Part shown: piece after piece, positions 191 through 49,427 of the stretch | Layout: each line of letters begins with the position of its first letter | Position numbering within the stretch: the stretch's first letter is position 1 | Origin: Bacteroidota bacterium | GTDB taxonomy: Bacteria > Bacteroidota > Bacteroidia > B-17B0 > Aurantibacillaceae | Length of the DNA: 55,807 bases | Assembly: GCA_021323535.1 (NCBI GenBank) | Contig: JAJONO010000053.1 | Location: forward strand, 1 to 55,807 | Reading direction: 5' to 3' | Made by a program: the position numbers and the translations under genes | Notes under the pieces: generated by a model | The model's database searches: none | Seen by the model: the letters and a program-made list of their open reading frames with translations, nothing else | Told to the model about the DNA's origin: nothing

Positions 191-3100
191 CTAGATTCTG
201 ATACCCATTACACATACATCGTCCGTCTGATCCGTTGTTTTTCTCCATTCCTCAAATTTCTTTTCTAAAAAATTCCTCTGTAGTCCAATCGGTAATTCAC
301 ATGCTTGCGACAAAATCTCTTTAAATCTTCTGTAATTTAATTTCTTATCGTCGTTTCCTCCAAACTGATCAGCATACCCGTCTGAAAACAAATAGATGTT
401 GTCTCCTGGTAATAAATCAAATTCACATGACTCATAGTTGCTGATGTTTTCATTTATTAAACCGATTGCTTGTTTGGTAGGATGTAAAATAGTAAGCTGA
501 GCTTTTTCCGATACCTTTCTGAAAATATAAACGGGGTTGTTGGCCCCAGAGTAATAAAGCGTTTGACTACTGTAGTCAATTCCAATTAGTGCAATATCCA
601 TCCCGTCTTTTACTTTTATTTTTGAGTCTGATGATTGATTTAAAGTGGAAATAATACTTTTGTTTAACTGATCAAGAATTTCATTTATTCTTCTTCCGTG
701 ATTTGTGTTCAGAGATTGCTTTAAAAAATCATTGGCAACAATACTCAGGAAGGCTCCCGGTACACCATGCCCCGTGCAATCTACAACTGCAGCGAGAGAC
801 AAAGTAACCTGCTCGTTAATTTTTAAAGGAGCCGACCAATAAAAATCACCACTAACAATGTCTTTCGGTTTATAAAGAACAAAATATTTTTTCAGAAAAA
901 GTTTATTCATAAGGCTTTCCGGTGGTAATAAGGAATCCTGTATTCTTTTTGCGTAATTAATACTATCAGTAATATCTTTATTCTTATGCTCGAGCTCTAC
1001 TTTTATTTTTTCAACTTCTTCCTTTTCTCTTTGCAATAAAAAAGTTTTCTGCTTCACCGTATCCTGTAACAAAATCTGCGTCTTTTTAAGACTATTAATT
1101 CTTATATACACACTTACATAAGTCAGAATAACAATCATGGTGATCAACAGAAAATAAAACCACATTTTTTTCCATATAGGAGGTTCTATCCTTAATGAAA
1201 TTCTTGCAGGCACAGATGAATAGATGCCGTTTGAATTACTGGCCACTACTTCAAAAACGTAGTCTCCGTCGTTTAACCGCGGAAAATCGGCATTTGAAAA
1301 TGTAGTTGATTTCCAGAACGAATCTATTCCGAGTAAACGATATTTGTATTTTATACTTTGAGGATCTGTAAGCGAAATTGCCTTATAATCTACTTTAAGA
1401 GAATAATAACCGTATTTTTTTTTGATGGATTCACTTGCCGGATGCTGAACGCCATTGAGACTGATGCCAGTGATAAATAAACGCGGAATAACTTCATTAT
1501 TGCCGCCCATATCCGAATCATAATGAACAATTCCCTGCGAGGTGCCAAACCATAGATTACTATAGTTGTCTTTATGGATAGCATTCAGGTTATTTTCATT
1601 GAATAATAAGCCGTTTTTGTTTGTAATACTATTGAATAAAGTATGAATCTCTTTCTTCTCGCTTAGGCCATTGCGGTGAGTTACCCAAACAGAGTTATTA
1701 TCATCTGCTATAATACCACTGCAGTAATTGGAAAGAAGCCCGTTTTTATCAGTAAAACATGAAAATAATTTATTGTCATATTTAAATACGCCATCGCCGT
1801 CGGTCGCAATCCAGATATTGCCATTTTTATCTTCTGTAACACAATTTATATTGAATGAATTTAGACCAGGAATATTTTTAAACGGCACCACTTTTCTTTC
1901 GTAAATATAATAGGGTGGAGAACCATGCGACGAGACCCATATCCGTCCACGGCTGTCGGAAAATAAATCGATAATGTTATTATGAAGTAAACCATTTGTA
2001 GTTGTTACCAGTTCTGTTTCATTTGTCTCAGTATCGTATGAGTATAATCCATTAGTGGTTCCAATTAGGATCCTGTTTTCTTTTTCTATTATGCAATTAA
2101 CCGATAAATTATAAAGCTTATTTTTCTTAGAAAAATCTTCAAATTTGAGTTTAGATTTATCATATTTGTATACACCGTTTTCGGAGGTACCTATCCACAG
2201 CTGATTTTTTGAATCATAATGTAACGCAGTTATTCTATCAGTTACAAATCCATTATTTTTATCAAAAAAATGAAATGAATTTGTTGTTTTATCAAAATAG
2301 CAAAGCCCCTTGTCGGTACCAATCCACAAATTCCCCTGGTCATCATTAACCAGCTTTTTAATATTTGTTCTTTGCAAACCTTCCTTTGCTCCAAAAAAGG
2401 AAAATTTTTCTATTGGTTTTTCAATTAACCCACCACCAAAGGTGCCAAACCACATATTACCTTCATTGTCCTGGTAAATAGATTGAATATATTGGTTCTT
2501 CAAACCGTTATTTTTATCCATCTTAAGAACTGTGAAAGAAGAATTATTTTTATTGTCAAGAATAACTTTTCTGATCCCTTCCCCGAATAGTCCTACCCAT
2601 AAATTCCCGGCCTGATCGGCAAAAAGACAAGTGATTTTTTGTTTTTCGGAATTAAGTTCATTCTGAATGTGTAAATTTTCAGTGAATGATAAACCGTTCC
2701 GTTCTATTTTATAAACTCCTTCTCCTTCCACTAATATCCAAAAGGATGAGGCTTTCTCTGATGCCGGAATAACCTGTTTTACGTTTTTGTAATCAAAGAA
2801 AGAAATGGTATGTATTAATTCAGTTTTATTTCCACCGCTTCTTTTTAAAAGTTTAAGTCCGTCAGAAGTTCCAACGATTATCTCTCCACCAGGAATAAAA
2901 CAAAACCAGTTAATTTCTTTAATTTCTTCGGGCGATACACAGGCAACATTCATGTTTACATCAATCCTGAATAAACCGCCTCCAAGAGTAGAAACCCATA
3001 TGTTATTTTGAATATCTTCGGTTATGTGGGTTACTTTGTGATCTTTTAGCTGATCACTTTTAAGATGAAAGAATTTTCCTTCTTTAAAACAGGAAACTCC

Positions 3101-3394
3101 GTTTTGATTATGGCCGAGCCATACCGTTCCTTTTGAATCGATATAATGAGTAGTTACAAAATTGCCGGAAATAATTTTGTTTTTGTATGTTTTAAAATTA
3201 GTTCCGTCAAAAATGCATAATCCTTCACCTGTAGATAAATGAAGGAACCCATTAGATGATTGGGAAATACAATAAATATATTCGTCATTCAGACCGTTTT
3301 CTTCGGAGTAGTTTCTGAAGTTGTAAGTTTGTGTATATCCACGGAATACCTCGGTTAAACTGAAAATAAGGAACAAAATGTATTTAAGTTTCAT
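191..3394 (-). CDS. Propeller-Y_Y_Y sensor with SpoIIE/PP2C phosphatase output
   Basis: A 1067-residue membrane sensor phosphatase. Residues 1-22 are a signal peptide. About 25-640 is a run of two-component-regulator propeller blades (repeated WxGT/WVSS and D.xGNxW motifs), about 650-735 a Y_Y_Y domain, and 744-765 a membrane helix, then a coiled coil to about 815. The PP2C/SpoIIE domain fills about 840-1067, with DCTGHG at 872 and SDGYADQFGG near 1005 as metal-binding motifs. The layout implies periplasmic ligand sensing and cytoplasmic Ser/Thr dephosphorylation of a partner such as an anti-sigma antagonist; none is seen nearby. Unlike classical hybrid propeller sensors it has no histidine kinase. 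It is the last gene of the T9SS-like operon, 10 bases after its neighbour, so its signal may concern that cassette. Confidence 0.88.
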   Translation of the reverse strand: MKLKYILFLIFSLTEVFRGYTQTYNFRNYSEENGLNDEYIYCISQSSNGFLHLSTGEGLCIFDGTNFKTYKNKIISGNFVTTHYIDSKGTVWLGHNQNGVSCFKEGKFFHLKSDQLKDHKVTHITEDIQNNIWVSTLGGGLFRIDVNMNVACVSPEEIKEINWFCFIPGGEIIVGTSDGLKLLKRSGGNKTELIHTISFFDYKNVKQVIPASEKASSFWILVEGEGVYKIERNGLSFTENLHIQNELNSEKQKITCLFADQAGNLWVGLFGEGIRKVILDNKNNSSFTVLKMDKNNGLKNQYIQSIYQDNEGNMWFGTFGGGLIEKPIEKFSFFGAKEGLQRTNIKKLVNDDQGNLWIGTDKGLCYFDKTTNSFHFFDKNNGFVTDRITALHYDSKNQLWIGTSENGVYKYDKSKLKFEDFSKKNKLYNLSVNCIIEKENRILIGTTNGLYSYDTETNETELVTTTNGLLHNNIIDLFSDSRGRIWVSSHGSPPYYIYERKVVPFKNIPGLNSFNINCVTEDKNGNIWIATDGDGVFKYDNKLFSCFTDKNGLLSNYCSGIIADDNNSVWVTHRNGLSEKKEIHTLFNSITNKNGLLFNENNLNAIHKDNYSNLWFGTSQGIVHYDSDMGGNNEVIPRLFITGISLNGVQHPASESIKKKYGYYSLKVDYKAISLTDPQSIKYKYRLLGIDSFWKSTTFSNADFPRLNDGDYVFEVVASNSNGIYSSVPARISLRIEPPIWKKMWFYFLLITMIVILTYVSVYIRINSLKKTQILLQDTVKQKTFLLQREKEEVEKIKVELEHKNKDITDSINYAKRIQDSLLPPESLMNKLFLKKYFVLYKPKDIVSGDFYWSAPLKINEQVTLSLAAVVDCTGHGVPGAFLSIVANDFLKQSLNTNHGRRINEILDQLNKSIISTLNQSSDSKIKVKDGMDIALIGIDYSSQTLYYSGANNPVYIFRKVSEKAQLTILHPTKQAIGLINENISNYESCEFDLLPGDNIYLFSDGYADQFGGNDDKKLNYRRFKEILSQACELPIGLQRNFLEKKFEEWRKTTDQTDDVCVMGIRI

Positions 3395-3404
3395 AGCAAA
3401 TAAT

Positions 3405-4370
3405 TTAGTCTTCTACTTTTACACCTATTTTATAGGCGTATTTTGGGATCCCGCCGATAGGAGAAGTAAAGAAAGGCATCAGTTCTCCATATTGATTTGA
3501 AATAAACACAACTATATTGTTGTTCTTGATGTCTTTTTGTTTTACAAATTGCACATCAAGAGAGGTATTTATTTCGGGTTTTGAAATTCTATGCGTGCTT
3601 TCGAGCCATGTGCCTTCAACCGAAGGTATATTCACATCGCCCTTTTTTGCAACTGAAACAACACGGATAAGTCCATCGTTGTCGAAATCGAAAATTTTAA
3701 TTTTTACCGCTGTTACGTTTTGCGACACAAAGGGGTAAAGATGAGAAGTGGAACCCTTCGAATCGGCCAGCCTGAAACAATATTCATAAGCAAAACCATT
3801 TCCTCCCTCAACAGGTTTGTTTTCATCGGCGTTTGATGATAAAAAAAGCCTGTACAGGTTTCCATCATCACCTTCAAGACCTTCAATAACTACTTTTAAA
3901 ACCCTACCGCCAATATCATTTTGTAATTCTCCCTCAATTGGATTAAAGGGCCCAAAACTGTACCATTTACCATCATAGTTTTTTTCGTTACTGAAGGTTT
4001 GTGTAGCGAGCAGGGTGCCACTTTTATAATTACCCGTAGGATCAGGGTTTTTAGCTGCAGGGTCTGAATGCGCTTTGTTGCCTCCGTAAATCGAAAACCT
4101 TGTTTTGCTGTTAAACGGTCCATGATTTTCATCAATGGTTCCTCCTGTTTCCGGATCAAGGATTCTTATATAAACTGGTTTTTTATATGATTCGGGAATT
4201 ACAAAGAAAAAAGTTTGTACAAAATCATCATCACCCCAGTGTTTATCGGAATTTTTACTGAACGTGCAGATGTAAGGAATTTGTTCTTCTTCGGACGGGA
4301 TTTGTTGCGCCAGTACGTTTGAAGTAATTATTAAAAATAATAATAAGAGTATGTATTTATTTTGATGCAT
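3405..4370 (-). CDS. Secreted protein of unknown function in T9SS-like operon
   Basis: A 321-residue protein with a clear Sec signal peptide (hydrophobic residues 5-19, cleavage near VLAQQ). I do not recognise the mature part. It is acidic and Gly/Asp/Asn rich, looks like a beta-sandwich, and lacks a C-terminal T9SS sorting domain and cysteine pairs. Its start overlaps the end of the upstream PD40-PKD gene by 14 bases, so the two are translationally coupled, and the SpoIIE sensor follows after 10 bases. Context suggests an exported partner of the PorP/PD40 envelope assembly. This is inference from position only. Confidence 0.75.
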   Translation of the reverse strand: MHQNKYILLLLFLIITSNVLAQQIPSEEEQIPYICTFSKNSDKHWGDDDFVQTFFFVIPESYKKPVYIRILDPETGGTIDENHGPFNSKTRFSIYGGNKAHSDPAAKNPDPTGNYKSGTLLATQTFSNEKNYDGKWYSFGPFNPIEGELQNDIGGRVLKVVIEGLEGDDGNLYRLFLSSNADENKPVEGGNGFAYEYCFRLADSKGSTSHLYPFVSQNVTAVKIKIFDFDNDGLIRVVSVAKKGDVNIPSVEGTWLESTHRISKPEINTSLDVQFVKQKDIKNNNIVVFISNQYGELMPFFTSPIGGIPKYAYKIGVKVED

Positions 4371-5805
4371 AAATTTTCTGGTCTCTGACCACGATTTGTT
4401 TTTCGACTTTTAGTTTTTCTATTTTACCTGTTGACTGGTTTTTTGCTTCAACCAATAATTCTACGGTATAGTATCCTTTTTTCTGGTAAGTGTGTTTCAC
4501 AGCTGCTCCTTCATTGTATTTTCCGTCGCCAAACGACCAGTATGTTTTATTAATAGTGTATTTTTTAAGGGCCGATGATCGGGAAAGCACAATGTCATTT
4601 CCGGTAATAATGGTATCTCTAGAATTAATACTTATTTGTTCCGGTTCTTCTACGGTTAATGAATAACTGGCCTGGCTCTGAAAAACTTCGCCCGAAACTT
4701 TTTGTACAATGTTTAGGTCAACAGTGTAATGGCCGGGTTTATTATAGCAGTGTTTTATTTTTTCTCCCCTGGCTTTCTGGCCATCGCCAAAGTTCCATTC
4801 ATATGTAAGATCGAGCGTGTCTCTTCCGCTAATGACCGATTCTTCGTAAAACGTGTAACAGAATTTATCTTTAGCGACAAATTTATTAAAGTCGGATAAT
4901 TGAGGTATCCAGGTATAGAAATAAAAAATATCGTCTTTATTCTGGGCAATTCTGTCGGAAGAAAAATAACCTGAAGTGCCTGAAGAATCTATAAACACGC
5001 CAAAATCATCTGACCCGGAATTTATTGGTAATTCAGGATGATAGATCTTTTCTTTTTTGTCGAGAAAAGTGAAATAAATATCCAGCTTGCCATAGCCCTC
5101 TTTTCTGTTGCTGGAAAAATAAAGCTTATTATCTTTTGTCAGAAAAGGAAAGACTTCATTGTTCTCTGAATTTATTTTTTTTCCAAGATTTGTAGCTTTT
5201 GTCCATACATTATTTTCCAGTCGCACCTGATAAAGGTCCATCCCTCCAAAGCCACCGCTTACATCTGATGAAAAGATAATCGTTTTTTCGTTCTGCGAAA
5301 GAGTAGGGTGGCAGGAAGAAAAGCCGGCTGGACAAAACGACATTTCTTCGGGGGCGGACCAGCCATTCTCTGTTTTTTTTGATCTGAAAATTTTTAAAAG
5401 ATTGGAGGCATCGTTAGATGTAAAATAAATAATGTCGCCCTTTTTATTAAAACAAAAGGGCCCTTCGTTGTGTTTACTGTTTATTTCCCCATCAAGGCTC
5501 TTTACTTTTGAAAAAGTAATTGAATCAATTTTTTTTGTATAGAAGAGATCGGTTGTTTCGGCGTTGTTTTTATCATCGGCGTAAACCACTCCTAATTCGT
5601 TGTATCTCGACGAAACAAAAAAAAGTTTCCCGTTCAGAATGAACGGACAAAAATCTGAGTTCTCGGAGTTAACTTTTAATCGTTTTATTTTAATACGAGA
5701 TGAGTCTTCTTTTTTAGAAGAAGCTTTAATGGCCTTATTTTCATTTTGTGAAAATAAATTCAGCGCACCCAGGCAAGTAATTATTAAACAAATTTGCTTC
5801 AGCAT
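4357..5805 (-). CDS. PD40 beta-propeller and tandem PKD protein
   Basis: A 482-residue exported protein. After the signal peptide (1-20), residues about 45-290 hold WD40-like PD40 repeats (SSDVSGGFGGMDLY, SSNRKEGYGKLDIY, FFSSDR). Two PKD domains follow at about 315-386 and 395-474, each with a WxFGDG strand and a Y..(K)GYYTVEL-type strand. PD40 proteins next to PorP/SprF are typical of T9SS accessory (PorE/SprE-related) lipoproteins and scaffolds, but here the usual OmpA peptidoglycan-binding domain is replaced by PKD repeats. The start shares one base with the PorP stop (TAATG), a sign of translational coupling. Role inferred: periplasmic or surface scaffold. Confidence 0.82.
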   Translation of the reverse strand: MLKQICLIITCLGALNLFSQNENKAIKASSKKEDSSRIKIKRLKVNSENSDFCPFILNGKLFFVSSRYNELGVVYADDKNNAETTDLFYTKKIDSITFSKVKSLDGEINSKHNEGPFCFNKKGDIIYFTSNDASNLLKIFRSKKTENGWSAPEEMSFCPAGFSSCHPTLSQNEKTIIFSSDVSGGFGGMDLYQVRLENNVWTKATNLGKKINSENNEVFPFLTKDNKLYFSSNRKEGYGKLDIYFTFLDKKEKIYHPELPINSGSDDFGVFIDSSGTSGYFSSDRIAQNKDDIFYFYTWIPQLSDFNKFVAKDKFCYTFYEESVISGRDTLDLTYEWNFGDGQKARGEKIKHCYNKPGHYTVDLNIVQKVSGEVFQSQASYSLTVEEPEQISINSRDTIITGNDIVLSRSSALKKYTINKTYWSFGDGKYNEGAAVKHTYQKKGYYTVELLVEAKNQSTGKIEKLKVEKQIVVRDQKIYASK

Positions 5806-6683
5806 TAAAAGTATCTTGTACTTAAAGATTCAACTTTGTAACGGAACAAATAACGAAGCAGCACTTCATGACTTCCAATACAGTACGTATTCAACTTTGT
5901 AAGAGTGTGATCGTAGCCGTATCCAAAGCGAAACTGATCGTTTAAACGCAGGTCAAGAAAAGCAATTAAAGAAGTATTTAAAGTATAACCGGCTCCAACA
6001 CCAATGATATCTTTCCAGTAAAAAGAACCAGACACGTTTGCAGCAACCGGAGAATTGAAAATATATTTTACAAAGACTGCAGGTTTAAATTTTAAGGTGC
6101 TTGTTATGTCGGCGAGGTAACCGGTATGAAATAATAAGGAACGGTATTTATCAAAATATCCATTGAGTAAATCGGGCGCTGATGCTCCAATGAAAAAACG
6201 TTTTGAATAATAAAATGTTCCGGCTCCTGCATTTAACACTGTGTTTCTTTGAATTACAGAATTAAAACTGGGATCATTGACTTCAATTGTATGAAGTTTG
6301 CTTTGGTTGGAAGTATACGTGTCAAAACCAGCCTGAAGCCCAAAGGATAAATAGCCGTTAATTAATCTTAATCTGTATGCATAAGCCAGGCTGGCCCTGG
6401 TATGATTAAATACACCATATTGATCGTTCATTGCGAGAAATCCAAGATTGACCTTCTTACTTCTAATGGGAGCATCTATACCAAATGAAATTGTTTCGGG
6501 AGCACCCTCTATACCAATCCATTGCTTACGGTAGTGGGCCGACATGTTCAGAGCCTCCCTGCTTCCTGCACAAGCCGGATTAAAAAAGAAACCATTGAAG
6601 ATGTACTGAATATAATCGCTACGGTGCTGCGAAAATAAACTGATAGAAAATACCAATAATATAATCAGTAAATTAAATTTCAT
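5805..6683 (-). CDS. PorP/SprF family type IX secretion membrane protein
   Basis: A 292-residue outer-membrane beta-barrel protein. A signal peptide (1-18) is followed by the diagnostic family start: QYIFNGFFFNPACAGS, then YRKQWIGIEGAPET near residues 50-62, and alternating amphipathic strands ending in a family-like GYGYDHTLTKL stretch. PorP/SprF proteins work with T9SS to hold type B (gliding-motility C-terminal) cargo at the surface. The upstream gene here encodes such a cargo and overlaps by four bases (ATGA), giving a cognate cargo/anchor pair. Confidence 0.95.
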   Translation of the reverse strand: MKFNLLIILLVFSISLFSQHRSDYIQYIFNGFFFNPACAGSREALNMSAHYRKQWIGIEGAPETISFGIDAPIRSKKVNLGFLAMNDQYGVFNHTRASLAYAYRLRLINGYLSFGLQAGFDTYTSNQSKLHTIEVNDPSFNSVIQRNTVLNAGAGTFYYSKRFFIGASAPDLLNGYFDKYRSLLFHTGYLADITSTLKFKPAVFVKYIFNSPVAANVSGSFYWKDIIGVGAGYTLNTSLIAFLDLRLNDQFRFGYGYDHTLTKLNTYCIGSHEVLLRYLFRYKVESLSTRYF

Positions 6684-9291: not shown

Positions 9292-10443
9292 TTATAGGTC
9301 CCATTTCCTTATTAAGCCAATGGCCGTTTCCAACATAGATGTGTTCCAGGATGCGATGTTCCAGTCGGGAAGTTGTTTTTGTTTTAAGAGTGAAAATGCT
9401 TCTGATGGACGTTGAGATTTTCGAAGAACATCAAGAATAAATTGCTGTTCATTGTAAAGTGGTTGATCGAAAAGAGGTGGATTTAGTTTCTGGTTATTAG
9501 TTATTGGCCGCGCTGTCGGCAAGCCTTTGGCGGCCGATGGTTTCTGATTCTGTGTTTGTGTTTTTTTCGATGAATTTATTCCTGCGATAATTTTCCTAAG
9601 CCTCCTGAAATCTTTCCTGAAATCTTCTGCTTCTTTTTCGTTGTGTAAAGTATCACCAAGACGTTCAAAAATAACATACTCAACATTTGGACAAAGTTTC
9701 ATTACTTCCGGAAGTACTTTAAAAATTTCAGCCGGAACTTTTTCATCGTGTGTATCCCGTCTTACTTTTTTAATGTCTTTTGTGTAAACGCTGTTCTGCC
9801 AGCTTCCCCCCGAAATATGAATCTCCTTCACTTTTTTAAGAGGATAGGATTTTACTAATTCGATAATCGCGGTTTTAAAATTCTGTGACTGGCAATAAAG
9901 ATTATGCAGATCAAGAATGAGAAATCCATTTACGGATTCAACAAGCGAGTCTAAAAATTCACCCTGTTTATTTATTTCATGTTTTGAAAACGCGAAGGCG
10001 AGATTCTCGACACCTACTGGTAATTCAGCAGCATGTTGTAATCTTTTTAAACGATCGGTTCCAATAGCAAGAGATTTTTTATTGAATGGAACCGGCAATG
10101 GCGCGCCTTTATGAAAATCGGAATGACTCATAAAACCAAAATGCTCGGTAATATGATTATAGTTATATCTTTTTACCTCGGCTTTTAGTTTTCTGATCCA
10201 GGACTCTTGTCGCTTTGTCCATTTAGCATCAAACAATGAGTAACGCACACCATGACCAATTAATCTGTTATTGATAGAATATTCCTTCAATAACTGATGA
10301 ACCCATTCTGGTTTGTATTTTTCAACGAGAATAGTGTCAAACGACCACTCTAAAACATCCACCTCGTTTTTTAAAAAGAGTGGGATGGCAGCGTTGAGAA
10401 ATTCCTGCTCATGCATAAGAGAGAGACCAACGAGAGGTTTCAT
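9292..10443 (-). CDS. DUF692/MNIO multinuclear non-heme iron oxidase with C-terminal extension
   Basis: A 383-residue cytoplasmic protein. Residues 1-290 match the DUF692 (MbnB/TglH-type) TIM-barrel: GHGVRYS (His64), ITEHFGF (Glu100, His101), LPVPF (116-120), ENLAF (Glu146, Asn147), LDLHNLY (Asp178; family usually has Asn-Asn here), EIHISGG (His209), DTHDEKVP (Asp230, His232) and VIFER (Glu260). MNIO enzymes oxidise Cys or C-terminal residues of ribosomal peptides. Three short Cys-ended peptides are encoded immediately upstream, so these are the likely substrates. No separate MbnC/TglI-like partner gene is adjacent. Residues about 295-383 form an extra segment, a low-complexity linker (containing a dispersed repeat) plus about 60 residues that may be a fused partner or recognition domain. 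That fusion role is inference. Confidence 0.88.
   Translation of the reverse strand: MKPLVGLSLMHEQEFLNAAIPLFLKNEVDVLEWSFDTILVEKYKPEWVHQLLKEYSINNRLIGHGVRYSLFDAKWTKRQESWIRKLKAEVKRYNYNHITEHFGFMSHSDFHKGAPLPVPFNKKSLAIGTDRLKRLQHAAELPVGVENLAFAFSKHEINKQGEFLDSLVESVNGFLILDLHNLYCQSQNFKTAIIELVKSYPLKKVKEIHISGGSWQNSVYTKDIKKVRRDTHDEKVPAEIFKVLPEVMKLCPNVEYVIFERLGDTLHNEKEAEDFRKDFRRLRKIIAGINSSKKTQTQNQKPSAAKGLPTARPITNNQKLNPPLFDQPLYNEQQFILDVLRKSQRPSEAFSLLKQKQLPDWNIASWNTSMLETAIGLIRKWDL
9515..9536 (-). repeat. GC-rich dispersed 22-bp element, copy 1
   Basis: The 22 bases CGGCCGCCAAAGGCTTGCCG plus AC (minus strand) occur identically at 19850-19871. Here they lie inside the MNIO gene and are read as AAKGLPT in the linker after the catalytic barrel. 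The element is much richer in G+C than its surroundings and has short inverted ends (GGCCG/CGGCC at 9506-9510 and 9531-9535). Word-like A+T-rich sequence flanks it. Confidence 0.75.
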
Positions 10444-10497
10444 GGAACTAAGATAACAATTAGTTGAAAGCTGAAGGGTGAAAGCTGAAAGAAAGGC

Positions 10498-10710
10498 TTA
10501 ACCTAATCCACATTTGTTGCAGCAATATTTCTCATCCACGTTCTTTTTTGGCGGAATAAGAATAACAGTGTCTTTTGAAGCTAAGTTTATTTTCGGATCG
10601 GAACTTAGTTTTACACGTGAAGTGTCGCTTTTTAAAGAGGGGTTACTTTGAGCGTTTGCTGAAGAAGCGTTCAATAATAAAATGCCTATTGTAACATGTG
10701 ATAATTTCAT
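10498..10710 (-). CDS. Candidate MNIO substrate peptide 3 (C-terminal CNKCGLG)
   Basis: A 70-residue peptide. I start it at the ATG giving MKLSH, because all three paralogues share that start and a signal peptide follows; the frame is open further upstream but that part overlaps the previous gene. Residues 1-21 are a Sec signal ending ANAQ, then a Ser/Lys/Asp-rich linker, then the terminal YCCNKCGLG. Cysteines occur only in this tail. It is the gene next to the MNIO enzyme (54-base gap). Not a family I recognise. The inferred role is a secreted peptide modified on its cysteine tail, perhaps for metal binding. Confidence 0.8.
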   Translation of the reverse strand: MKLSHVTIGILLLNASSANAQSNPSLKSDTSRVKLSSDPKINLASKDTVILIPPKKNVDEKYCCNKCGLG

Positions 10711-10721
10711 ACAAAAATAAT

Positions 10722-10946
10722 TTAGCCCATTCCGCAAGGGCCACAGGTCCATTTTTTTCCTTCTTCGGGTGAATTACGAATAATAATGGTGGAAGAATCT
10801 TTTTCCGTAGTTCTTGCTTTGGTGAGAGGCTTTATTTTGTGTTTATTTTTTAAGGTATCGCCTTTTGTCTTGGATTTATCGTCCTGAGCTTTACCTGCTG
10901 TAGCGCTAACTAAAAGAACTCCTAATGTGATATGTGATAATTTCAT
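10722..10946 (-). CDS. Candidate MNIO substrate peptide 2 (C-terminal CGPCGMG)
   Basis: A 74-residue peptide that starts MKLSH like its two neighbours; the signal peptide ends near GKAQ (residue 21). The middle is Lys/Thr/Ser-rich and the end is KKWTCGPCGMG. Its only two cysteines lie in the CxxCGxG tail. The gene is 17 bases after copy 1 and 11 bases before copy 3, so the three form one transcription unit. The linkers differ strongly between copies while leader and tail are kept, the pattern expected of precursor peptides. Function inferred from that pattern and the adjacent MNIO gene. Confidence 0.8.
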   Translation of the reverse strand: MKLSHITLGVLLVSATAGKAQDDKSKTKGDTLKNKHKIKPLTKARTTEKDSSTIIIRNSPEEGKKWTCGPCGMG

Positions 10947-10963
10947 ATTATTAAATTTTAATA

Positions 10964-11179
10964 TTAGCCTCTTCCACAGGCAGGGCAATAACGTGGTTCT
11001 TTAACTGTAATGTTTGGAACAACAACAGTCTCATTTTTTTCGCACACTGTTTTTGTTTTTTGCTTCACAGTTTTAGTTTTTGATTTACTCTTAGGTTGTT
11101 TTGTTTTTGGTTCGGTTTGAGCCGATACCACAATACTTGAACTAATAAGTGTGGCTATTAAAAGATGACTTAATTTCAT
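10964..11179 (-). CDS. Candidate MNIO substrate peptide 1 (C-terminal CPACGRG)
   Basis: A 71-residue peptide, the first gene of the unit. The start is set at MKLSH (ATG at 11179) rather than 45 bases upstream, since the extra residues are not shared and precede a good signal peptide ending VVSAQ. The linker is very Lys/Thr/Gln-rich, with one extra cysteine (VCEKN). The tail is PRYCPACGRG, ending exactly at the stop codon. A 158-base gap separates it from the GT9 gene, so it probably has its own promoter, though I found no clear TAnnTTTG box there. Confidence 0.8.
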   Translation of the reverse strand: MKLSHLLIATLISSSIVVSAQTEPKTKQPKSKSKTKTVKQKTKTVCEKNETVVVPNITVKEPRYCPACGRG

Positions 11180-13354: not shown

Positions 13355-16252
13355 TTAGTTTCCTTTTGTAAATATAACTTCTTCCAGCTTCACTTTATTT
13401 TCTTCTTCGGCGGTCATCCAGAAATGATTTACATCTTCATGTATCCACGAATAGCAGGCGCTTATCCTGATAGCGTAATTAAGTGTCGCTTCTGATTTTA
13501 AAACAGTGAATTTAATGACTGACCAATCGTTTTTCTGAACAGAGCCAAAAAACAAACTCAGGGTATGATCCTTGTCCGACAGGTTCTTCAGCTTAAGCAG
13601 TAAGGTGTTTCCGGAAGATTTATCAAGTAATGGAATACGCTGGAGCCTTGAATAATAGGAGCTGATAGTTGCCGTATCCTTATGCCTGTACAATTTTTTC
13701 TCGTCACCTTTAGAATCAAAATTACCCCATATGTAAGGAAGTTTTACTAACTCGTATTTCTTATACCGTCTTACCGAACGATCCGTTATGGTATCCTGTT
13801 TGCTTTTATGAGCGGTAGAATTAATCCTTCTCCATATGCGAACTTCTTCAATGATCGTATCAGGTTCAAATGTTTTATAGAAATACTCTGCCATTCGGTA
13901 ATGCCTGAAATTATTAGGTACTTCATCCATATGATTAGGCCCCTTTACAAAATCGAATAAGAGATACGGTGTATTATAATCCTTTAAATCTTCAATGAAC
14001 TTATCCTGCAGCCAATCGTTATGACTACAGATAGGATTCTGGTAAAAATAAGAAGGTGTTGGTTTTCCCGTATAAAAATAGAGCAGTGATGTGTTTGTAA
14101 AATCGATGAATGTTTCGTTTTCTTTCAGATTATGGTTGAGAAAACTGATCACCTCTTTTTTATCGTTGAGTTTTGAATCACCTGTAAAGCTAATAATGGT
14201 GCGTGATTTTAGTGTATCCAGGTTAGTAACAGGTTTTAAAAGTTTTGACATAGTTGTTTCAAAAACACTAACAGAGCCGTTTACTGATGGCAATTTGTAA
14301 TTTAAAAGAGAAAAAAACAGAACAAGAACAACAAGAACAGTTTTTACGTAACCCTTTTGTTTGTAAAGAAAAATAAAAACGCTTCCCGCGAGAATAATGT
14401 ATATAAATGAAGATACAAGTGAATCTATTCGCTCAATGAAACTGTGTCGAACCAATCCCCTCTGAAAATTGATGAAGTAATATCCGCAAATGACCATTAA
14501 GGCTAAAAACGCAAGCCGCTGTGGTTTTGTTTTGCTCAGTTCCCTGAACTTTATAAGCATATAAATAAAAATCAAAGCAACGCAAACAGGAAAAATATAG
14601 TAATGCATTTTGTACGAAGCCATGTTCGCGTCGCCGGTAGAAGTATAACCGTAAGTTTGCGCCGAAGAAATATAATTGAGTATGTAAGGGACTTTCGCGA
14701 AAAGATTCACTCCACGTAAAGCCGAAATAATAATGGTGATGCCTGAAAATACGATCCCTGTAATCGCGAGAGCTTTAAACATTGTTTTGAAATTGATCCG
14801 GAAAGAAGACGAATTGAAATGGTAATAGAAAAGAATTGGCGGCAAAATAAGCAGGCAGGGAAAACCAACGTCTATACGCCATAAGATCAAAAAAACCAGG
14901 GTAGAAAAAAGCAGGATATAATTTCTGATTGTTTGTTTCTCTTCTAGAATTTTATAAAACACAACAATTCCCAAAGCGGCAAAAGCGTGTTCATAAGGAC
15001 AAAGCGCGTAATAAAACGGAAAGAAAAGAATAACATAAAGCGCAATGTAAGGGCTCCTGGTTAATACCCGGATAAGGTAATAGTAAAGAATGGCCATGAA
15101 TGTATGATGGAGGAAATCGTAAAGCTCAAGATCATTTACTTTGATATCGTTAAAAAAAGCATAGATGCCGCTAAAAACAATGTCGCTTAATACATGGGAG
15201 TTAAATTTTTCAATGACCGGCACAGTTCCCCACTTACTGAATTCCATGATGGGCAGGTAGTGATTGGCCGGTTCAAACATGTCCTGCATACTTTCACGTA
15301 AAAAGTAATGCGAGTAAAATGTGTAAGAAACAATTGAGAAAATAAACAATGGAAAATAGGATTTTCCTACCAGAGAAGTAAATGAGAGCTGGTTTTGCTT
15401 TGTAACGTTTTTGCTGATCCTTTTATATCGAAAAAAAATAATCGCGATAAGTATGATCCAGATGCAGATAAAAATGGGAGTAGGGGCCACATCCATTCCT
15501 TTTCCTTTAAAGATCAAAAAAATCTCGTCTTTTAAAAGAGAAGCAAAAGGCGCAAATGCCAGCGGAACCAATGAATAAACAATGATTTCTGTTTTCTGAA
15601 CAATCAATGGAATCTGTGTCCCGAAAAATAAATTTGTTGTAATGATCAAAAGCAATCCAATTATAAAACTCACTATCCAGAAATCGGGTCCGGTACCGGA
15701 ACCATTGAGAATTAAAATATCTGACACAAAAAAGTAAAGCGATGCCGAAAGTGTAAGAATAATGGTGTAGACAGAAACAGGTATTTCTTTTCTTCTTATA
15801 AAGATCCCAATTAAAGCGGCAACGGGCATTAGTTTATGAAGAAAAAACACAAACTCAAGGCCATCTGTTACCTCAAATCCAAAAATTCTGAACAAAAAAT
15901 AGATGATCCCTGCAAACGAACTATAGTTTACAATCTTATTTTCGGCGCTGTTTAAAATGCCATTTCGTAATTTATGAAAGCCATAGGCCACCAGTCCAAA
16001 CACAAAAAGCGCGAGTAAGAAAATGGCAAGAGAGTTATAAAACAGCGAAACCCTTGCCTGGATATCTAACGCGTTAAATGTAGCGTTACTTATCATTCTG
16101 CCTTTAAAGTGTACAAGTTCGAAGTCGGCCGAACCTGCATACCTCATTACCAGCCAAAGGGAATAAAACAAGGAGGTAAACAGAATATGTTTTCCGTGCG
16201 AACCTAGAAATGTTCTGAATGCAGTAAAAAAAGAGATCACAGCTACCTTCAT
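13355..16252 (-). CDS. Large polytopic membrane protein, possibly GT-C-like
   Basis: A 965-residue inner-membrane protein with about 18 hydrophobic helices over the first about 640 residues, then a soluble C-terminal part of about 300 residues. I place the start at the ATG giving MKVAVISFF. The frame extends 16 codons upstream, but that stretch is the terminator hairpin of the preceding gene and would encode a Lys/Phe/Tyr-rich artefact. I do not recognise the family with certainty; overall shape and neighbours (methyltransferase, GT9) suggest a lipid-linked-sugar transferase or O-antigen-type protein. No confident catalytic DxD/ExD loop was identified. Confidence 0.7.
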   Translation of the reverse strand: MKVAVISFFTAFRTFLGSHGKHILFTSLFYSLWLVMRYAGSADFELVHFKGRMISNATFNALDIQARVSLFYNSLAIFLLALFVFGLVAYGFHKLRNGILNSAENKIVNYSSFAGIIYFLFRIFGFEVTDGLEFVFFLHKLMPVAALIGIFIRRKEIPVSVYTIILTLSASLYFFVSDILILNGSGTGPDFWIVSFIIGLLLIITTNLFFGTQIPLIVQKTEIIVYSLVPLAFAPFASLLKDEIFLIFKGKGMDVAPTPIFICIWIILIAIIFFRYKRISKNVTKQNQLSFTSLVGKSYFPLFIFSIVSYTFYSHYFLRESMQDMFEPANHYLPIMEFSKWGTVPVIEKFNSHVLSDIVFSGIYAFFNDIKVNDLELYDFLHHTFMAILYYYLIRVLTRSPYIALYVILFFPFYYALCPYEHAFAALGIVVFYKILEEKQTIRNYILLFSTLVFLILWRIDVGFPCLLILPPILFYYHFNSSSFRINFKTMFKALAITGIVFSGITIIISALRGVNLFAKVPYILNYISSAQTYGYTSTGDANMASYKMHYYIFPVCVALIFIYMLIKFRELSKTKPQRLAFLALMVICGYYFINFQRGLVRHSFIERIDSLVSSFIYIILAGSVFIFLYKQKGYVKTVLVVLVLFFSLLNYKLPSVNGSVSVFETTMSKLLKPVTNLDTLKSRTIISFTGDSKLNDKKEVISFLNHNLKENETFIDFTNTSLLYFYTGKPTPSYFYQNPICSHNDWLQDKFIEDLKDYNTPYLLFDFVKGPNHMDEVPNNFRHYRMAEYFYKTFEPDTIIEEVRIWRRINSTAHKSKQDTITDRSVRRYKKYELVKLPYIWGNFDSKGDEKKLYRHKDTATISSYYSRLQRIPLLDKSSGNTLLLKLKNLSDKDHTLSLFFGSVQKNDWSVIKFTVLKSEATLNYAIRISACYSWIHEDVNHFWMTAEEENKVKLEEVIFTKGN

Positions 16253-16265
16253 GTTGTAAAAATAA

Positions 16266-16294
16266 AAAAAGAGGGAGTTTTGTTCCCTCTTTTT
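16266..16294 (-). terminator. Terminator of the PPIase operon
   Basis: An 11-bp perfect stem (AAAAAGAGGGA with TCCCTCTTTTT) around a 7-base loop, flanked by A/T runs so that it could work in both directions. It lies 20-50 bases after the stop of the cyclophilin-FKBP gene, between it and the start of the membrane protein. Confidence 0.85.
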
Positions 16295-16315
16295 CTTCAT
16301 TATTATTAAACGAGA

Positions 16316-19283: not shown

Positions 19284-19321
19284 ACTATAAACCATTGACT
19301 ATCGACTATAAACTATTGACT
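19284..19321. repeat. Intergenic word repeat (ACTATAAACCATTGAC type)
   Basis: This 43-base gap between two FKBP genes is almost wholly built of near-repeats: ACTATAAACCATTGAC, then GACTATCGAC and GACTATAAACTATTGACT. The same words recur at 42125-42155. The 3' end of the repeat provides the last codons and TAG stop of the downstream-strand FKBP gene (19313). Confidence 0.7.
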
Positions 19322-19915
19322 GATTTGAATATCGTATAAAATCGGTACCTGGGGTGGGATCTTCTTCATATCGCCCAAAAGGCCGTGAGCCAGATGAGAG
19401 GGAATAAGCAGAATGGCGTGATCGCCTTTTTTAAGGTACTGAACACCTTTGTGTATGCCACTCTCAATGTTCTCATGGCCCACTTCAAATGTCTTTTTAC
19501 CTTCGGTTGTTGAAGAATAGCATTCGGTTCCATCGAGCAGGCTTACCTTATAATCCATGCTGATTAAGGAGCCCTCTCCTATACTGTCGCCTTTTTCAGA
19601 AGCTTTGTAAACGTAGTAGCGAATACCCGAACTGGTTTTAATAAAGGGCATTTTATGTGTCTTGCCATAATAATCCATCTCATCATTCTCTTTCTGAATC
19701 ACCATCTGGTTGGCCTTCATGAATTGTTTTCTAAGAGAATCTTCATTGATTTGCTTCATGGCGTGCTTTGTATGCGTATCGTCTTTAGCCGGACCGCACG
19801 AAATAAGAGCCAGGAAACAAGAACCAAGAAACAAGAACCAGAAAACCACCGGCCGCCAAAGGCTTGCCGACGGCGTTGTAAGAAACAACAAAGGATGGAA
19901 AAGGGTTTGGCGCAT
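19313..19915 (-). CDS. GldI-like FKBP lipoprotein with repeat-derived N-terminus
   Basis: A 200-residue protein. A hydrophobic segment ends in a lipobox-like ALISC at about residues 36-40, followed by a Glu/Lys helix and one FKBP domain (about 95-200). The domain is short and altered (LLDGTECYSS instead of FDSS; ESGIHKGV instead of the Trp motif), while IPSHLAHG and the final strands are kept, much like GldI. The first about 30 residues before the signal core are partly encoded by a dispersed GC-rich repeat, and the last codons by an intergenic word repeat, so both ends of the reading frame look repeat-remodelled. The true start could lie downstream of 19915. Confidence 0.78.
   Translation of the reverse strand: MRQTLFHPLLFLTTPSASLWRPVVFWFLFLGSCFLALISCGPAKDDTHTKHAMKQINEDSLRKQFMKANQMVIQKENDEMDYYGKTHKMPFIKTSSGIRYYVYKASEKGDSIGEGSLISMDYKVSLLDGTECYSSTTEGKKTFEVGHENIESGIHKGVQYLKKGDHAILLIPSHLAHGLLGDMKKIPPQVPILYDIQISQ
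19850..19871 (+). repeat. GC-rich dispersed 22-bp element, copy 2
   Basis: Identical over 22 bases to 9515-9536. Here the coding strand of the FKBP gene is the complement of that used in the MNIO gene, and it is read as PSASLWRP. On the plus-strand left it is flanked by a string of near-repeated AAACAAGAACCA words. Confidence 0.75.
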
Positions 19916-46397: not shown

Positions 46398-47441
46398 TCA
46401 GTTGTTTATCACTATACAAAATTCGTTTTTAGCAGTAATCTTTCCAATGGGTTTGGCATATAGTTTAAGGCCGTTGGACGAAAGAAACCCTTCAAAATCC
46501 GCTTTATTCTCTTTTGAAACCGTTATCATTAATCCTCCATTAGTTTGAGGATCGTTTAATGTGAAGAAGGATTGCGCGCCAATATCTTTTACTTTTTTCT
46601 CGTAACTGTTCCAGTTGCGGTACATGTTATCAGGCACTATCATTTTTGAAGTGTACTCTTCAATACCTCTGATCACTGGAACATCGCTGTAATTTAATTC
46701 GGCAGATAATCCTGCCCCTTCGGTAATTTCAATTAAATGCCCGAGGAGACCAAAACCGGTAATGTCGGTCATAGCATTTACATAATCGAGTGTACCTATC
46801 TTTTCTCCGATCTTATTCAGTTGTGATAATTGCTCAATGAAAAGGTTTTGATGTTCTTCGTTAAGCACGCCACGTTTTAAAGCAGTGGCAAGAATTCCAA
46901 CACCAAGTGGTTTCGTAATGTAAATAAGATCGCCTTCCTTGGCCGCCGAATTTTTCTTGATATGTTTCACCGGAGCAAGTCCGTTTACCGAAAGTCCGAA
47001 CATGGGTTCAAGAGTATCAATGCTGTGCCCGCCCGCCAGGGTAATTCCTGCTTCATTGCACACAGATCTCGCTCCTTCAATCACCTGTTGCGCCAGTTCG
47101 GCAGGAAGTTTATTTATGGGCCAGCCAAGTAGGGCAGTGGCCAGCAAGGGTTTTCCTCCCATGGCGTAAACATCGCTTATGGCATTGGCAGACGCTATTC
47201 TTCCAAAATCAAAAGCATCATCTACAATGGGCATAAAAAAATCTACAGTGCTGATGAGAGCCGTTCCGTTTCCAAGATCGTAAACAGCTGCGTCGTCTTT
47301 GGTTGAATTTCCTACGAGGAGTTTTTCATCAACGATTCCTTCGCTATCTGATTTTAAAATTTTTTCGAGAACATCGGGAGCTATTTTACAGCCGCAACCA
47401 GCGCCGTGACTATATTGGGTCAATTTTATTTTTTCAGTCAT
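46398..47441 (-). CDS. selD: Selenide, water dikinase
   Basis: A 347-residue enzyme that makes selenophosphate from selenide and ATP. The N-terminal QYSHGAGCGCKIAP carries the catalytic Cys16 and Lys19; this is the Cys form, not the selenocysteine form. Downstream are DDAAVYDLG, ALISTVDFF and GGHSID motifs, and NDPQTNGGLM near the C-terminus. It overlaps the mnmH gene by four bases (ATGA), matching use of selenophosphate by the tRNA enzyme encoded just before it. Confidence 0.97.
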   Translation of the reverse strand: MTEKIKLTQYSHGAGCGCKIAPDVLEKILKSDSEGIVDEKLLVGNSTKDDAAVYDLGNGTALISTVDFFMPIVDDAFDFGRIASANAISDVYAMGGKPLLATALLGWPINKLPAELAQQVIEGARSVCNEAGITLAGGHSIDTLEPMFGLSVNGLAPVKHIKKNSAAKEGDLIYITKPLGVGILATALKRGVLNEEHQNLFIEQLSQLNKIGEKIGTLDYVNAMTDITGFGLLGHLIEITEGAGLSAELNYSDVPVIRGIEEYTSKMIVPDNMYRNWNSYEKKVKDIGAQSFFTLNDPQTNGGLMITVSKENKADFEGFLSSNGLKLYAKPIGKITAKNEFCIVINN

Positions 47442-48469
47442 TTTGTATCGATCAGTTTTTTAGCGATAACATCAGCATCGAGTTTATCGAAGGGAAAATC
47501 TTCAAGCTTTAGGTTTTCTCTATTGTGTAATCCATGCTCGTACGATTTGTCGTAATACTTCAGGCAAATTTCACATGTGGTTTTAAGATCGTTTTCTTTT
47601 AAAGCGTTGATGCAATCTTTGGTTTGTTCGTTACCTAAACGTTTTGTGATTTTGAGAATGGATTCTTCTAACTGTTGCATCGGGAATTTTCCGTATTCTT
47701 TTACGAGGTAATTCACGCGTTCTTCGAAAGGAAGATTCACATATTTTATTTTCGCTTCGCGCATCTGTGTCCACAAGCCCTCCGGAATTACTTTTTTTCC
47801 AATGAGGCGGGCCTCATCTTCAAGCCACACTTCACGTTCAGGATTCATATTCATAAACCGGACACACAATTCATTTTCGAATTGCTCCTGCGTTGGAGGT
47901 TCAGTTTCACCAAGCGCGCCAAATGCGGAACCTTTATGTTTTGCAAGTCCCTCAAGATCCACTACCTGTTCGCCTAGTTCTTTCAGTTTATGCAGTATTA
48001 AAGTTTTTCCGGAGCCGGTTCTTCCACTCAGCAACAAAATATTTTTAGGTGTATTAAAACTTGTAAGGGCAAATGTTCTGAAAGCTTTATAACCACGCTT
48101 CAATGTAAACACTTTCAATCCGTACATCTCCAGCAGCCAGGCAACGCTTCCGCTTCTCATTCCTCCGCGCCAGCAATGAACGTACAAGGTGTTTTCTTGT
48201 GCAAGCTCCCGTGCTTTTAAAACTAAACCGGCCATTTTAGGCCCAACAATTTCCAGGCCTTTTACAATGGCTTCTTCGCGGCCTTTCTGTTTATAGATGG
48301 TACCCACAACAGCGCGTTCTTCATTGGAGAAAAGAGGAATATTGGTAGCGCCGGGAACATGTCCCTGTGCAAATTCTTTTGGAGAACGCACATCTATTAC
48401 ATTTCCTTTTCCGGAAGAATCCCAGATAAATTTCTGTATGTCTAAGGCCTGAGGCATATTGCGAGCCAA
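47438..48469 (-). CDS. mnmH: tRNA 2-selenouridine synthase
   Basis: A 343-residue enzyme (SelU/YbbB). The N-terminal rhodanese domain has DVRSPKEFAQGH and the active Cys99 in YVHCWRGGMRSGS. The C-terminal P-loop domain has GRTGSGKT (149-156). It replaces sulfur by selenium at the wobble 2-thiouridine of certain tRNAs, taking selenophosphate from SelD, whose gene follows with a four-base overlap. No selA or selB is seen in the window, so selenium may be used only for tRNA here; the rest of the genome would decide this. Confidence 0.96.
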   Translation of the reverse strand: MARNMPQALDIQKFIWDSSGKGNVIDVRSPKEFAQGHVPGATNIPLFSNEERAVVGTIYKQKGREEAIVKGLEIVGPKMAGLVLKARELAQENTLYVHCWRGGMRSGSVAWLLEMYGLKVFTLKRGYKAFRTFALTSFNTPKNILLLSGRTGSGKTLILHKLKELGEQVVDLEGLAKHKGSAFGALGETEPPTQEQFENELCVRFMNMNPEREVWLEDEARLIGKKVIPEGLWTQMREAKIKYVNLPFEERVNYLVKEYGKFPMQQLEESILKITKRLGNEQTKDCINALKENDLKTTCEICLKYYDKSYEHGLHNRENLKLEDFPFDKLDADVIAKKLIDTK

Positions 48470-48639
48470 ATATCGGTATTTGCTCCGAAATACTTCAATA
48501 TTTTAGGCCACAGATCAGACTAATTTGCACAAATCAGATCAGGGAAAACTATCGAAATTCTCACCCACTAAAAAAGCCGCAGATCTATCTGTGAAGATCT
48601 GCGTAAATCAGTGAAAATCTGTGGCTGGAACAATAGTAA

Positions 48640-49092
48640 TTAAAGTTCTAACTCGGTCTTTATAAAATCTTTCGCACCTTCTGCTCCCGTAATTTCAAGC
48701 CAGAGTTCGTCAGGATTTCCATTCACCGATAAATTAAAAGTAAAAAAGTCGCAGCATTGCCTTTCGGCTTTTATAAATGTGATCAACTGATCAATGGTTT
48801 CATCGTTGCCCTTGAATTTAAAAGCATAACCATTAGTGAGTTCTTTTTTACCAAGAACCTGTTTCCGTAAATCTTCAATAACGGTTTCTTTTCTCTTCTG
48901 AAGTTCGGGACTTGTGAGTTTGCAGCTTAATTCAGTTGTTGGAGTAAAGGCCGCGGATGTTTTTTTTGATCCACATTTATCTTTACAACAGGGTTCCTTT
49001 TCTGAAACCTGCCGGTATTTATCGGGATTATCTACCTGATTACAACAGGTGCATCCAAAAAGTGTGACGAGGAATAATAGTATTTTTTTCAT
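48640..49092 (-). CDS. Cys-rich exported protein with ERQCC domain
   Basis: A 150-residue protein with a lipoprotein-like signal (FGCTCC). A Cys-rich linker follows (EKEPCCKDKCGSKK), then a C-terminal domain (about 85-150) with FIKAERQCCDFFTFNLSV and LWLEITGAEGAKDFI. Domains with this ERxCCPFF-type motif often lie near mercury, arsenic or other heavy-metal genes. It probably binds a soft metal in the periplasm. It lies behind a terminator, so it may be expressed at a lower level than the genes upstream. Confidence 0.7.
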   Translation of the reverse strand: MKKILLFLVTLFGCTCCNQVDNPDKYRQVSEKEPCCKDKCGSKKTSAAFTPTTELSCKLTSPELQKRKETVIEDLRKQVLGKKELTNGYAFKFKGNDETIDQLITFIKAERQCCDFFTFNLSVNGNPDELWLEITGAEGAKDFIKTELEL

Positions 49093-49110
49093 ATTATGAA
49101 TTCAGGTTAA

Positions 49111-49142
49111 AAATAAGGGCCCCGTTTCCGGAGACCCTTTTT
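49111..49142 (-). terminator. Terminator between two Cys-rich genes
   Basis: On the minus strand AAGGGTCTCCG pairs with CGGGGCCCTT (one mismatch) around a GAAA loop, followed by a T-rich run. It comes right after the stop of the 56-residue peptide gene. Confidence 0.8.
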
Positions 49143-49147
49143 GTTAT

Positions 49148-49318
49148 TTATTGTTTGCAGCACTCTTCTGCATTGGTGCATTTTTCTTTGCACTGATCTG
49201 GTTTGCAAACACCCATTGGACAGTTTTCACAATCCGATATGTTTGAGTTTGTATTCGCAACAACAATTGCGCTGGTAGCGATCAATAAAGTCGCACCAAT
49301 TAAAATGATTTTTTTCAT
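49148..49318 (-). CDS. Small Cys-rich exported peptide
   Basis: A 56-residue peptide. The start is set at the ATG giving MKKIILIGATL; the frame extends upstream, but that part contains the inverted repeat at 49335-49362. A signal peptide ends near VVA, and the mature part has eight cysteines in CENCPMGVCKPDQCKEKC and ECCKQ. It probably binds metal ions such as Cu, Zn or Cd in the periplasm. Family not recognised. Confidence 0.75.
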   Translation of the reverse strand: MKKIILIGATLLIATSAIVVANTNSNISDCENCPMGVCKPDQCKEKCTNAEECCKQ

Positions 49319-49334
49319 TGTTAAATGTTTTAAT

Positions 49335-49362
49335 GAAGCATACATTCTTAGAATGACGCTTC
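49335..49362. promoter_or_regulatory. Inverted repeat upstream of the 56-residue peptide gene
   Basis: GAAGC...GCTTC encloses CATTCT-T-AGAATG, in the 17-44 bases before the start codon. It could be an operator or a leader hairpin. The GAAGCGTC octamer formed on the minus strand here also occurs at 49788-49795, upstream of the CC-repeat peptide. Confidence 0.4.
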
Positions 49363-49390
49363 GTTTTAATAATTTCTGGATGATTATATG

Positions 49391-49415
49391 AAACAAAACT
49401 TCTGAAGTCTTGTTT
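49391..49415. terminator. Inverted repeat after the 109-residue Cys-rich gene
   Basis: Twelve-base arms (AAACAAGACTTC with GAAGTTTTGTTT) around a one-base centre, 13 bases after the stop at 49428 on the minus strand. There is only a short T run, so it may be a weak terminator or a regulator site. Confidence 0.4.
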
Positions 49416-49427
49416 TAAACTGAAGTA

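Follow-up and report, generated by a model that had tools for sequence, protein, structure and literature searches.

The window analysed here, i.e. the whole stretch of 55,807 nucleotides from a Bacteroidota bacterium, holds three adjacent genes for small peptides with cysteine-containing ends next to a gene for an MNIO enzyme, and the question raised by this locus is what a single enzyme of this superfamily makes of three such peptides. In our judgement it is probable that the locus is a small chryseobasin-like RiPP cluster of the ChrH/DybH subfamily equipped with a precursor array, in which one enzyme would install a macrocycle and a hydantoin on each tail and the Sec pathway would export the products. 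The tail family itself is known, as the CPACGMG tail was reported in 2023 from 115 clusters (PMC10214503) and the text of a 2025 preprint describes a CPxCGxG precursor C-terminus, with product structures, across the ChrH/DybH subfamily (PMC12636315). The preliminary description of this DNA, which knew of no described family with such a tail, is therefore corrected on this point. The feature that looks new, which that description did not single out, is the array: several precursors with different, paralogue-specific tails and a single enzyme to act on them all.

Gene order, precursors and enzyme

All four genes lie on the minus strand. In the order of transcription, three precursor genes of 71, 74 and 70 codons, separated by gaps of 17 and 11 bases, are followed after 54 bases by the MNIO gene of 383 codons. 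The features are as follows (a slash marks the predicted cleavage site).

10964-11179, minus strand: precursor 1 (R-type), 71 aa, signal peptide ending VSA/Q, Lys-rich linker with one extra Cys
10964-10987, minus strand: tail CPACGRG of precursor 1, from the open reading frame call
10722-10946, minus strand: precursor 2, 74 aa, signal peptide ending GKA/Q, from the open reading frame call; included in alignment A1
10722-10745, minus strand: tail CGPCGMG of precursor 2, from the open reading frame call
10498-10710, minus strand: precursor 3, 70 aa, signal peptide ending ANA/Q, nearest to the enzyme gene; included in alignment A1
10498-10521, minus strand: tail CNKCGLG of precursor 3, lacking Pro, from the open reading frame call
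9292-10443, minus strand: MNIO of the ChrH/DybH subfamily, 383 aa, assigned by PF05114, NF050165, AlphaFold2, Foldseek and active-site conservation
9506-9535, no strand assigned: copy of a GC-rich genome-wide repeat, in frame in the MNIO linker, encoding SAAKGLPTA

The peptides share an MKLSH start, followed by a hydrophobic stretch and then by SA/Q, KA/Q or NA/Q, the signal peptides being judged by eye. Their linkers are rich in Lys, and the predicted net charge of the mature forms is +9, +6 and +4 for precursors 1, 2 and 3, respectively. The arrangement first described, i.e. three adjacent Sec-type peptides of 70-74 aa ending in CPACGRG, CGPCGMG and CNKCGLG with an MNIO gene after them on the same strand, was confirmed by the open reading frame calls and by the match of the enzyme to Pfam PF05114 (MbnB_TglH_ChrH; E 9.5e-33, 114 bits, above the cut-off of 25).

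The NCBIfam model of the chryseobasin precursor ChrA (NF050124) matched precursor 1 (E 2.8e-9, 37.4 bits) and precursor 2 (E 0.0065, 17.1 bits), both below its cut-off of 50, and did not match precursor 3. The strict CPxCGxG form of the tail occurs in precursor 1, one of the three, the other two having CxxCGxG without the first Pro. A search of the 5.3 Mb genome for the DNA form of C..CG.G followed by a stop returned nine matches, versus four in the reversed control, and three of the nine are the window precursors. As for the remaining six, two contain an internal stop, one ends in TGG and three are in frame, with open frames of fewer than 20, 20 and 78 codons, the last without any Met, so that only the three matches in the window are credible peptides. 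Likewise, when 19 such peptides, including these three, were turned into a profile, it matched only these three in their own genome.

The enzyme belongs to the ChrH/DybH subfamily on the evidence of its sequence and predicted fold. The ChrH model (NF050165, MNIO_ChrH) covers residues 2-382 with positions 1-361 of its 363 and scores 471 bits, the cut-off being 600. With the cut-offs of NF050165 and NF050124 both missed, the system is to be taken as a relative of chryseobasin rather than as chryseobasin proper. An AlphaFold2 model computed from 10 sequences (mean pLDDT 79.5, pTM 0.85) predicts a TIM barrel at about 1-290, a low-confidence linker from 292 and a C-terminal helical bundle at 327-382, whose helices span 327-342, 346-356 and 368-382; this corresponds to the fused bundle by which the ChrH/DybH subfamily is recognised. 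When this model was submitted to Foldseek, the best matches among solved structures were TglH, MbnB and the MNIO 3bww, with E 6.5e-13 to the TglHI entry and 4.3e-10 to the MbnABC entry.

Fourteen candidate polar active-site positions were compared across 84 ChrH-like proteins, the window enzyme included, and 13 are invariant in all of them (H64, H101, E146, N147, D178, H180, N181, H209, R228, D230, H232, D233 and E260), while H97 is kept in 83. From alignment to TglH and 3bww, most of these conserved positions would bind iron. The window enzyme is 48-53% identical to 29 chryseobasin-type enzymes and 40-45% identical to 43 lipoprotein-type enzymes. At the 26 positions which separate chryseobasin-type from lipobox-type enzymes it agrees with the former at 13, with the latter at six and with neither at seven, which is only suggestive as to whether it might methylate as ChrH does.

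Precursor arrays and their tails among relatives

The distribution of such loci was surveyed with NF050165 (E <= 1e-60) in several overlapping genome samples, in which f1 denotes the family of the host, f36 and f68 are lipobox-type families and g22 is the chryseobasin-type genus. ChrH-like genes were found in 10 of 87 f1 genomes, 13 of 195 in f36, 33 of 200 in f68 and 40 of 78 in g22 (39 of them above the chryseobasin cut-off, which the window enzyme does not reach), as well as in 7/395 genomes of a class sample and 6/395 of a phylum sample. In a tree of 85 proteins, with the second MNIO of the host genome (contig C91, locus L001) as the outgroup, f36, f68 and a single additional sequence are split off together by a branch supported at 100/100, and g22 is split off by another at 100/99. 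The f1 enzymes fall outside both and form no resolved clade of their own, in an analysis for which the tree tool warned of long branches.

Precursors were counted at each locus as peptides of at least 40 residues ending in CxxCGxG, the counts covering 30 of the 34 f68 matches and 30 of the 40 g22 matches. The ten f1 loci carry 4, 4, 4, 3, 3, 2, 2, 1, 1 and 0 precursors, i.e. arrays of two to four in seven. A single precursor was present at all 30 f68 loci and at 29 of the 30 in g22, where the remaining locus carries the tail in a shorter open frame; in f36 there is one in nine loci, two in three and three in one. Two further loci have one precursor (G235) and none (G097). Wider flanks, taken for all f1 and f36 loci, 11 of f68 and 10 of g22, left the counts of those loci unchanged. 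One f1 locus (L007) starts 25 bases before its only precursor, and another (L143) stops at a contig end inside or just before the enzyme start, so that arrays occur in seven of the eight f1 loci whose upstream side is present; L141 (L157) is a true single-precursor locus. A scan of genome contigs gave one relative, L029, which is probably the same as G1210:C548 (both 4350 bases).

Overall, tail peptides adjoin 82 of 85 ChrH-like genes, in four taxonomic groups. The search for such peptides near DUF692 genes in other Bacteroidota, suggested by the preliminary description, thus gave a positive answer, and its idea of an MNIO RiPP system whose substrates combine a Sec signal peptide with a Cys tail is supported; the same layout recurs at loci of other genomes.

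The tip of the tail, i.e. its sixth residue, is Met in all 29 g22 peptides, Met (25) or Leu (5) in the 30 of f68, Met (15) or Arg (3) in the 18 of f36, and Met (12), Arg (7), Lys (4) or Leu (1) in the 24 of f1. The commonest f1 tail is CPPCGMG (8/24), and Pro is often missing from the tails of this family. In all ten clusters with both Arg and Met/Leu tips (seven from f1 and three from f36), the Arg-tipped gene lies upstream and the precursor closest to the enzyme gene has a Met or Leu tip; since these clusters are related, ten is not a count of independent events. All five Arg-tipped peptides of the genus (precursor 1 and those at L030, L031, L032 and L034) have an additional Cys in the middle of the linker, at a distance from the signal peptide; it is missing from the Arg-tipped peptides of two other genera (L156, L158). 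In genome G007, where the CPGCGMG precursor is absent, the last precursor and the MNIO gene are separated by a gene for a secreted-looking protein of 142 aa (L031, 8716-9144). Elsewhere in the class of the host (G097:C41, L065, 1-1529), a ChrH-like MNIO has its apparent C-terminal bundle on a separate gene of 85 aa, and an upstream open reading frame of 82 codons ends in TGACGMG, without the first Cys of the motif; such a split of MNIO and bundle is in print from Cyanobacteria.

Tails are conserved by paralogue. When the last seven residues of 16 peptides from five genomes of the genus were removed, reciprocal best matching gave 25 pairs, and the two members carried an identical tail in 25/25; shuffling tails within loci reached 25 in none of 5000 trials, the maximum being 21. 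Precursor 1 without its tail has four best matches in the genus, all of R-type. The tail-less matching assigned no paralogue group to precursors 2 and 3 or to peptides of other genera, and the best matches of the tail-less L156 and L158 peptides do not follow the tail, so R-type orthology is supported within the genus. In tail-defined groups, 175 codon-pair comparisons gave 72 synonymous and no nonsynonymous differences, the zero following by construction from groups made by tail; the tail-less matching is the independent test. Meanwhile, the linkers of the same paralogue groups have a mean identity of 43-64%.

The profile of 19 peptides was moreover run against 40 genomes of the genus and matched in 10. 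Its 19 strong full-length matches are its own input and give no independent evidence. Six of the 40 genomes hold a ChrH-like gene, and the same six hold all 19 precursors. The sole new strong match (G025, E 5e-16) is a K-type peptide whose likeness is lost after ...SCGK, about 130 bases from the contig end, with upstream neighbours as in its relatives. Weak matches (G016, G003, G421 and a fourth in G007; E 1e-4 to 0.0025) show no C..CG.G-stop within the 3 kb examined. As the precursors co-occur with the enzyme and the weak matches have no tail, no free-standing peptide family is seen in these 40 genomes, i.e. the situation which had been named as refuting the RiPP reading was not encountered there.

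It could be argued that just the canonical-like peptides are substrates, and that the enzyme binds those with Pro-less or Arg/Lys tails without converting them, so that they would serve as decoys or inhibitors or be degenerate copies. CNKCGLG and CGPCGMG indeed occur only in the window among the 24 f1 peptides, and precursor 3 escapes the ChrA model; however, Arg and Lys tails stay unchanged across members of the genus while the mean identity of their linkers falls to 63 and 43%, and Arg tips recur in a second family (3/18 in f36). We regard this explanation as improbable, though the best placed of the rivals. Among the substrates whose tail is given in the text of PMC12636315, none has an Arg, Lys or Pro-less tail, and CNKCGLG and CPACGRG may therefore be poor or unmodified substrates. 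According to the same text, DybH needs just the seven-residue tail and no partner, a laboratory mutant with CPPCGMG was modified, the HymA tail CPGCGLG was modified too, and some subfamily precursors vary from CPACGMG. Multi-precursor or paralogue arrays and a CGKCG motif do not figure in the main text of PMC12636315, in which "tandem" refers throughout to tandem mass spectrometry and never to precursors, although arrays may be listed in its supplementary tables; among the other publications listed, judged by title and abstract opening, none on such arrays was found.

Proposed product and competing readings

For the cluster with a precursor array which we favour, the characterised relatives suggest the following course. 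The cytosolic MNIO would bind the C-terminal CxxCGxG of each peptide and, using O2 and an iron cluster, link the sulfur of the first Cys to the beta carbon of the second, thereby closing a macrocycle, and shift the carbonyl of the second Cys to a place between two amide nitrogens, that of Gly and that of the residue after it, thereby forming a hydantoin. This chemistry follows PMC10214503 and PMC12636315; the text of the latter gives the subfamily product as a thioether macrocycle plus hydantoin, at -4 Da for DybH, ChsH and HymH or at +10 Da and S-methylated for ChrH. The window tails would accordingly lose 4 Da, or reach +10 Da by S-methylation if the enzyme acts like ChrH. The modified peptides would then be exported by Sec, and signal peptidase I would free an N-terminal Gln, which would become pyroglutamate under the Q-rule described for Bacteroidota (PMC10653852). 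Gln follows the predicted cleavage site in 20 of the 24 f1 peptides, and the four Lys-tipped ones have Asn (two by eye). The outcome would be a set of peptides that are cationic and flexible, have both termini blocked and vary in the residue next to the hydantoin, which would be Met, Leu or Arg here and also Lys in relatives.

With the carbonyl of the second Cys placed between these two amide nitrogens, the first Gly would be part of the hydantoin and the sixth residue need only offer an amide NH. In 101 peptides of the four groups, Met, Leu, Arg and Lys are found at the sixth position but never Pro, and both ring residues are variable; variation without Pro fits the requirement which this chemistry implies, while the invariance of Gly is no test, as Gly is part of the search pattern.

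Among known systems, chryseobasin (chrA/chrH of Chryseobacterium; PMC10214503) is among the closest, sharing with the window a full-length ChrH-like MNIO with a C-terminal bundle, a precursor gene directly upstream, a Lys-rich linker, a C-terminal CxxCGxG and a signal peptide ending in AQ, the last as seen in g22, which passes the ChrH cut-off. It differs in that chryseobasin-type loci have one precursor with CPACGMG (29 of 30 in g22) and the window three, and the ChrI, ChrE and ChrP families are not among the window neighbours scanned. DybA/DybH and the other DAG-RiPPs, as described in the text of PMC12636315, belong to the same subfamily, characterised there by a fused C-terminal bundle and no partner protein, and share the minimal set of precursor and MNIO and the same tail logic. 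Their precursors, however, carry a lipobox Cys and become lipoproteins, whereas the window peptides have no lipobox; by our own regular expression this Cys is present in 0/24 f1, 0/29 g22, 14/18 f36 and 30/30 f68 peptides. The window enzyme also lies outside the f36/f68 clade (100/100), which is equated with DybH-like enzymes by its precursors, the tree containing no named DybH.

The bufferins, oxazolins and methanobactins have the MNIO superfamily and, in part, exported Cys peptides in common with the window, which invites the reading of a metallophore or metal buffer with oxazolone/thioamide or thiooxazole groups on copper-binding peptides. The enzyme, however, scores 92.5, 78.7 and 16.6 bits on the BufB, HvfB and MbnB models, all below their cut-offs, versus 471 on ChrH, and thus falls in a different subfamily by profile score. 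Furthermore, sources including PMC12452194 and PMC13419390 describe those systems as having partner proteins, precursor motifs of other kinds and heterocycles that bind copper; no partner-protein family is found among the neighbours scanned, and a relative's product has no UV-visible absorbance feature according to the text of PMC12636315. Such a reading is quite unlikely, and the suggestion of metal capture at the cell surface, made when the locus was first described, finds no support in these data. It is very improbable that the secreted peptides are ordinary ones whose tails act as small hooks for metals or disulfides, with the MNIO adjoining them incidentally: C..CG.G does resemble half of a zinc ribbon, but the tail sits exactly at the C-terminus, ChrH-like genes have tail peptides next to them in four taxonomic groups, and in the genus genomes searched no such peptides were seen away from these genes.

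With the array of modified peptides as the preferred reading, the differing and individually conserved tips suggest that the residue next to the hydantoin is important for what the products do; for the known products, the text of PMC12636315 calls the function unclear. Our guess is that the window products form a graded set of ligands or effectors working extracellularly. We give slightly less than even credence to a leader-independent system in which one MNIO yields a defined set of macrocycle-hydantoins with Met/Leu, Arg and Lys tips and selection keeps the tips because the mixture works rather than any single compound; such a system would itself prove, from nature, that enzymes of ChrH type accept charged tips and Pro-less rings. 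A role of the peptides in interaction with other cells rather than in housekeeping is a more doubtful proposal, towards which the patchy occurrence in the genus (6/40) and the diversity of tips weakly point. The arrays may in any case be regarded as a natural substrate panel for the enzyme, with charged tips, Pro-less rings and a Lys inside the ring, and they point to a third lineage in Bacteroidota, in addition to the Chryseobacterium and lipoprotein types, for which export would go through signal peptidase I and a pyroglutamate cap is predicted.

Neighbouring genes and an in-frame repeat

A domain scan covering the flanks other than 13355-16300 and 19313-19915 showed no export, immunity, peptidase, regulator or partner gene beside the cluster that the window shares with its relatives. 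Promoter-like and terminator-like sites are fewer than in shuffled sequences, and a sigma-70 consensus is unsuited to Bacteroidota. A block of PorP/SprF, PKD/PD40, a 321-aa gene and Reg_prop/SpoIIE stands beside the ChrH-like gene both in the window (191-6683) and at L033 (1449-7942). A link of the cluster to this T9SS-like block was rejected, since G021 has homologues of four of the block's genes near its ChrH-like gene but on the opposite side and strand, and the 321-aa gene occurs in 23/40 genomes of the genus, the enzyme in just six. Further along the window (46398-49691), an AIR-synthase-type gene, presumably SelD-like, and a rhodanese gene, which we take to be selenouridine-synthase-like, precede two small proteins that are rich in Cys and have no match in Pfam.

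The repeat in the MNIO linker has a core of 18 bases, GCGCYGTCGGCAAGCCTT, present in nine genome copies with at most two mismatches and in none in the reversed control. The copies lie in the window at 9506-9535 and 19859-19876, and in genome G000 on contigs C25, C63, C64, C66, C134, C16 and C17 (L190-L196). Two are found in open frames of about 630 codons (L190 and L196, perhaps homologous), and the other five copies of L190-L196 are in no open frame of 120 codons. In the MNIO linker and in both long frames the repeat encodes PSAAKGLPT each time, and, being in frame with the same peptide, it looks like a protein-inserting palindromic repeat.
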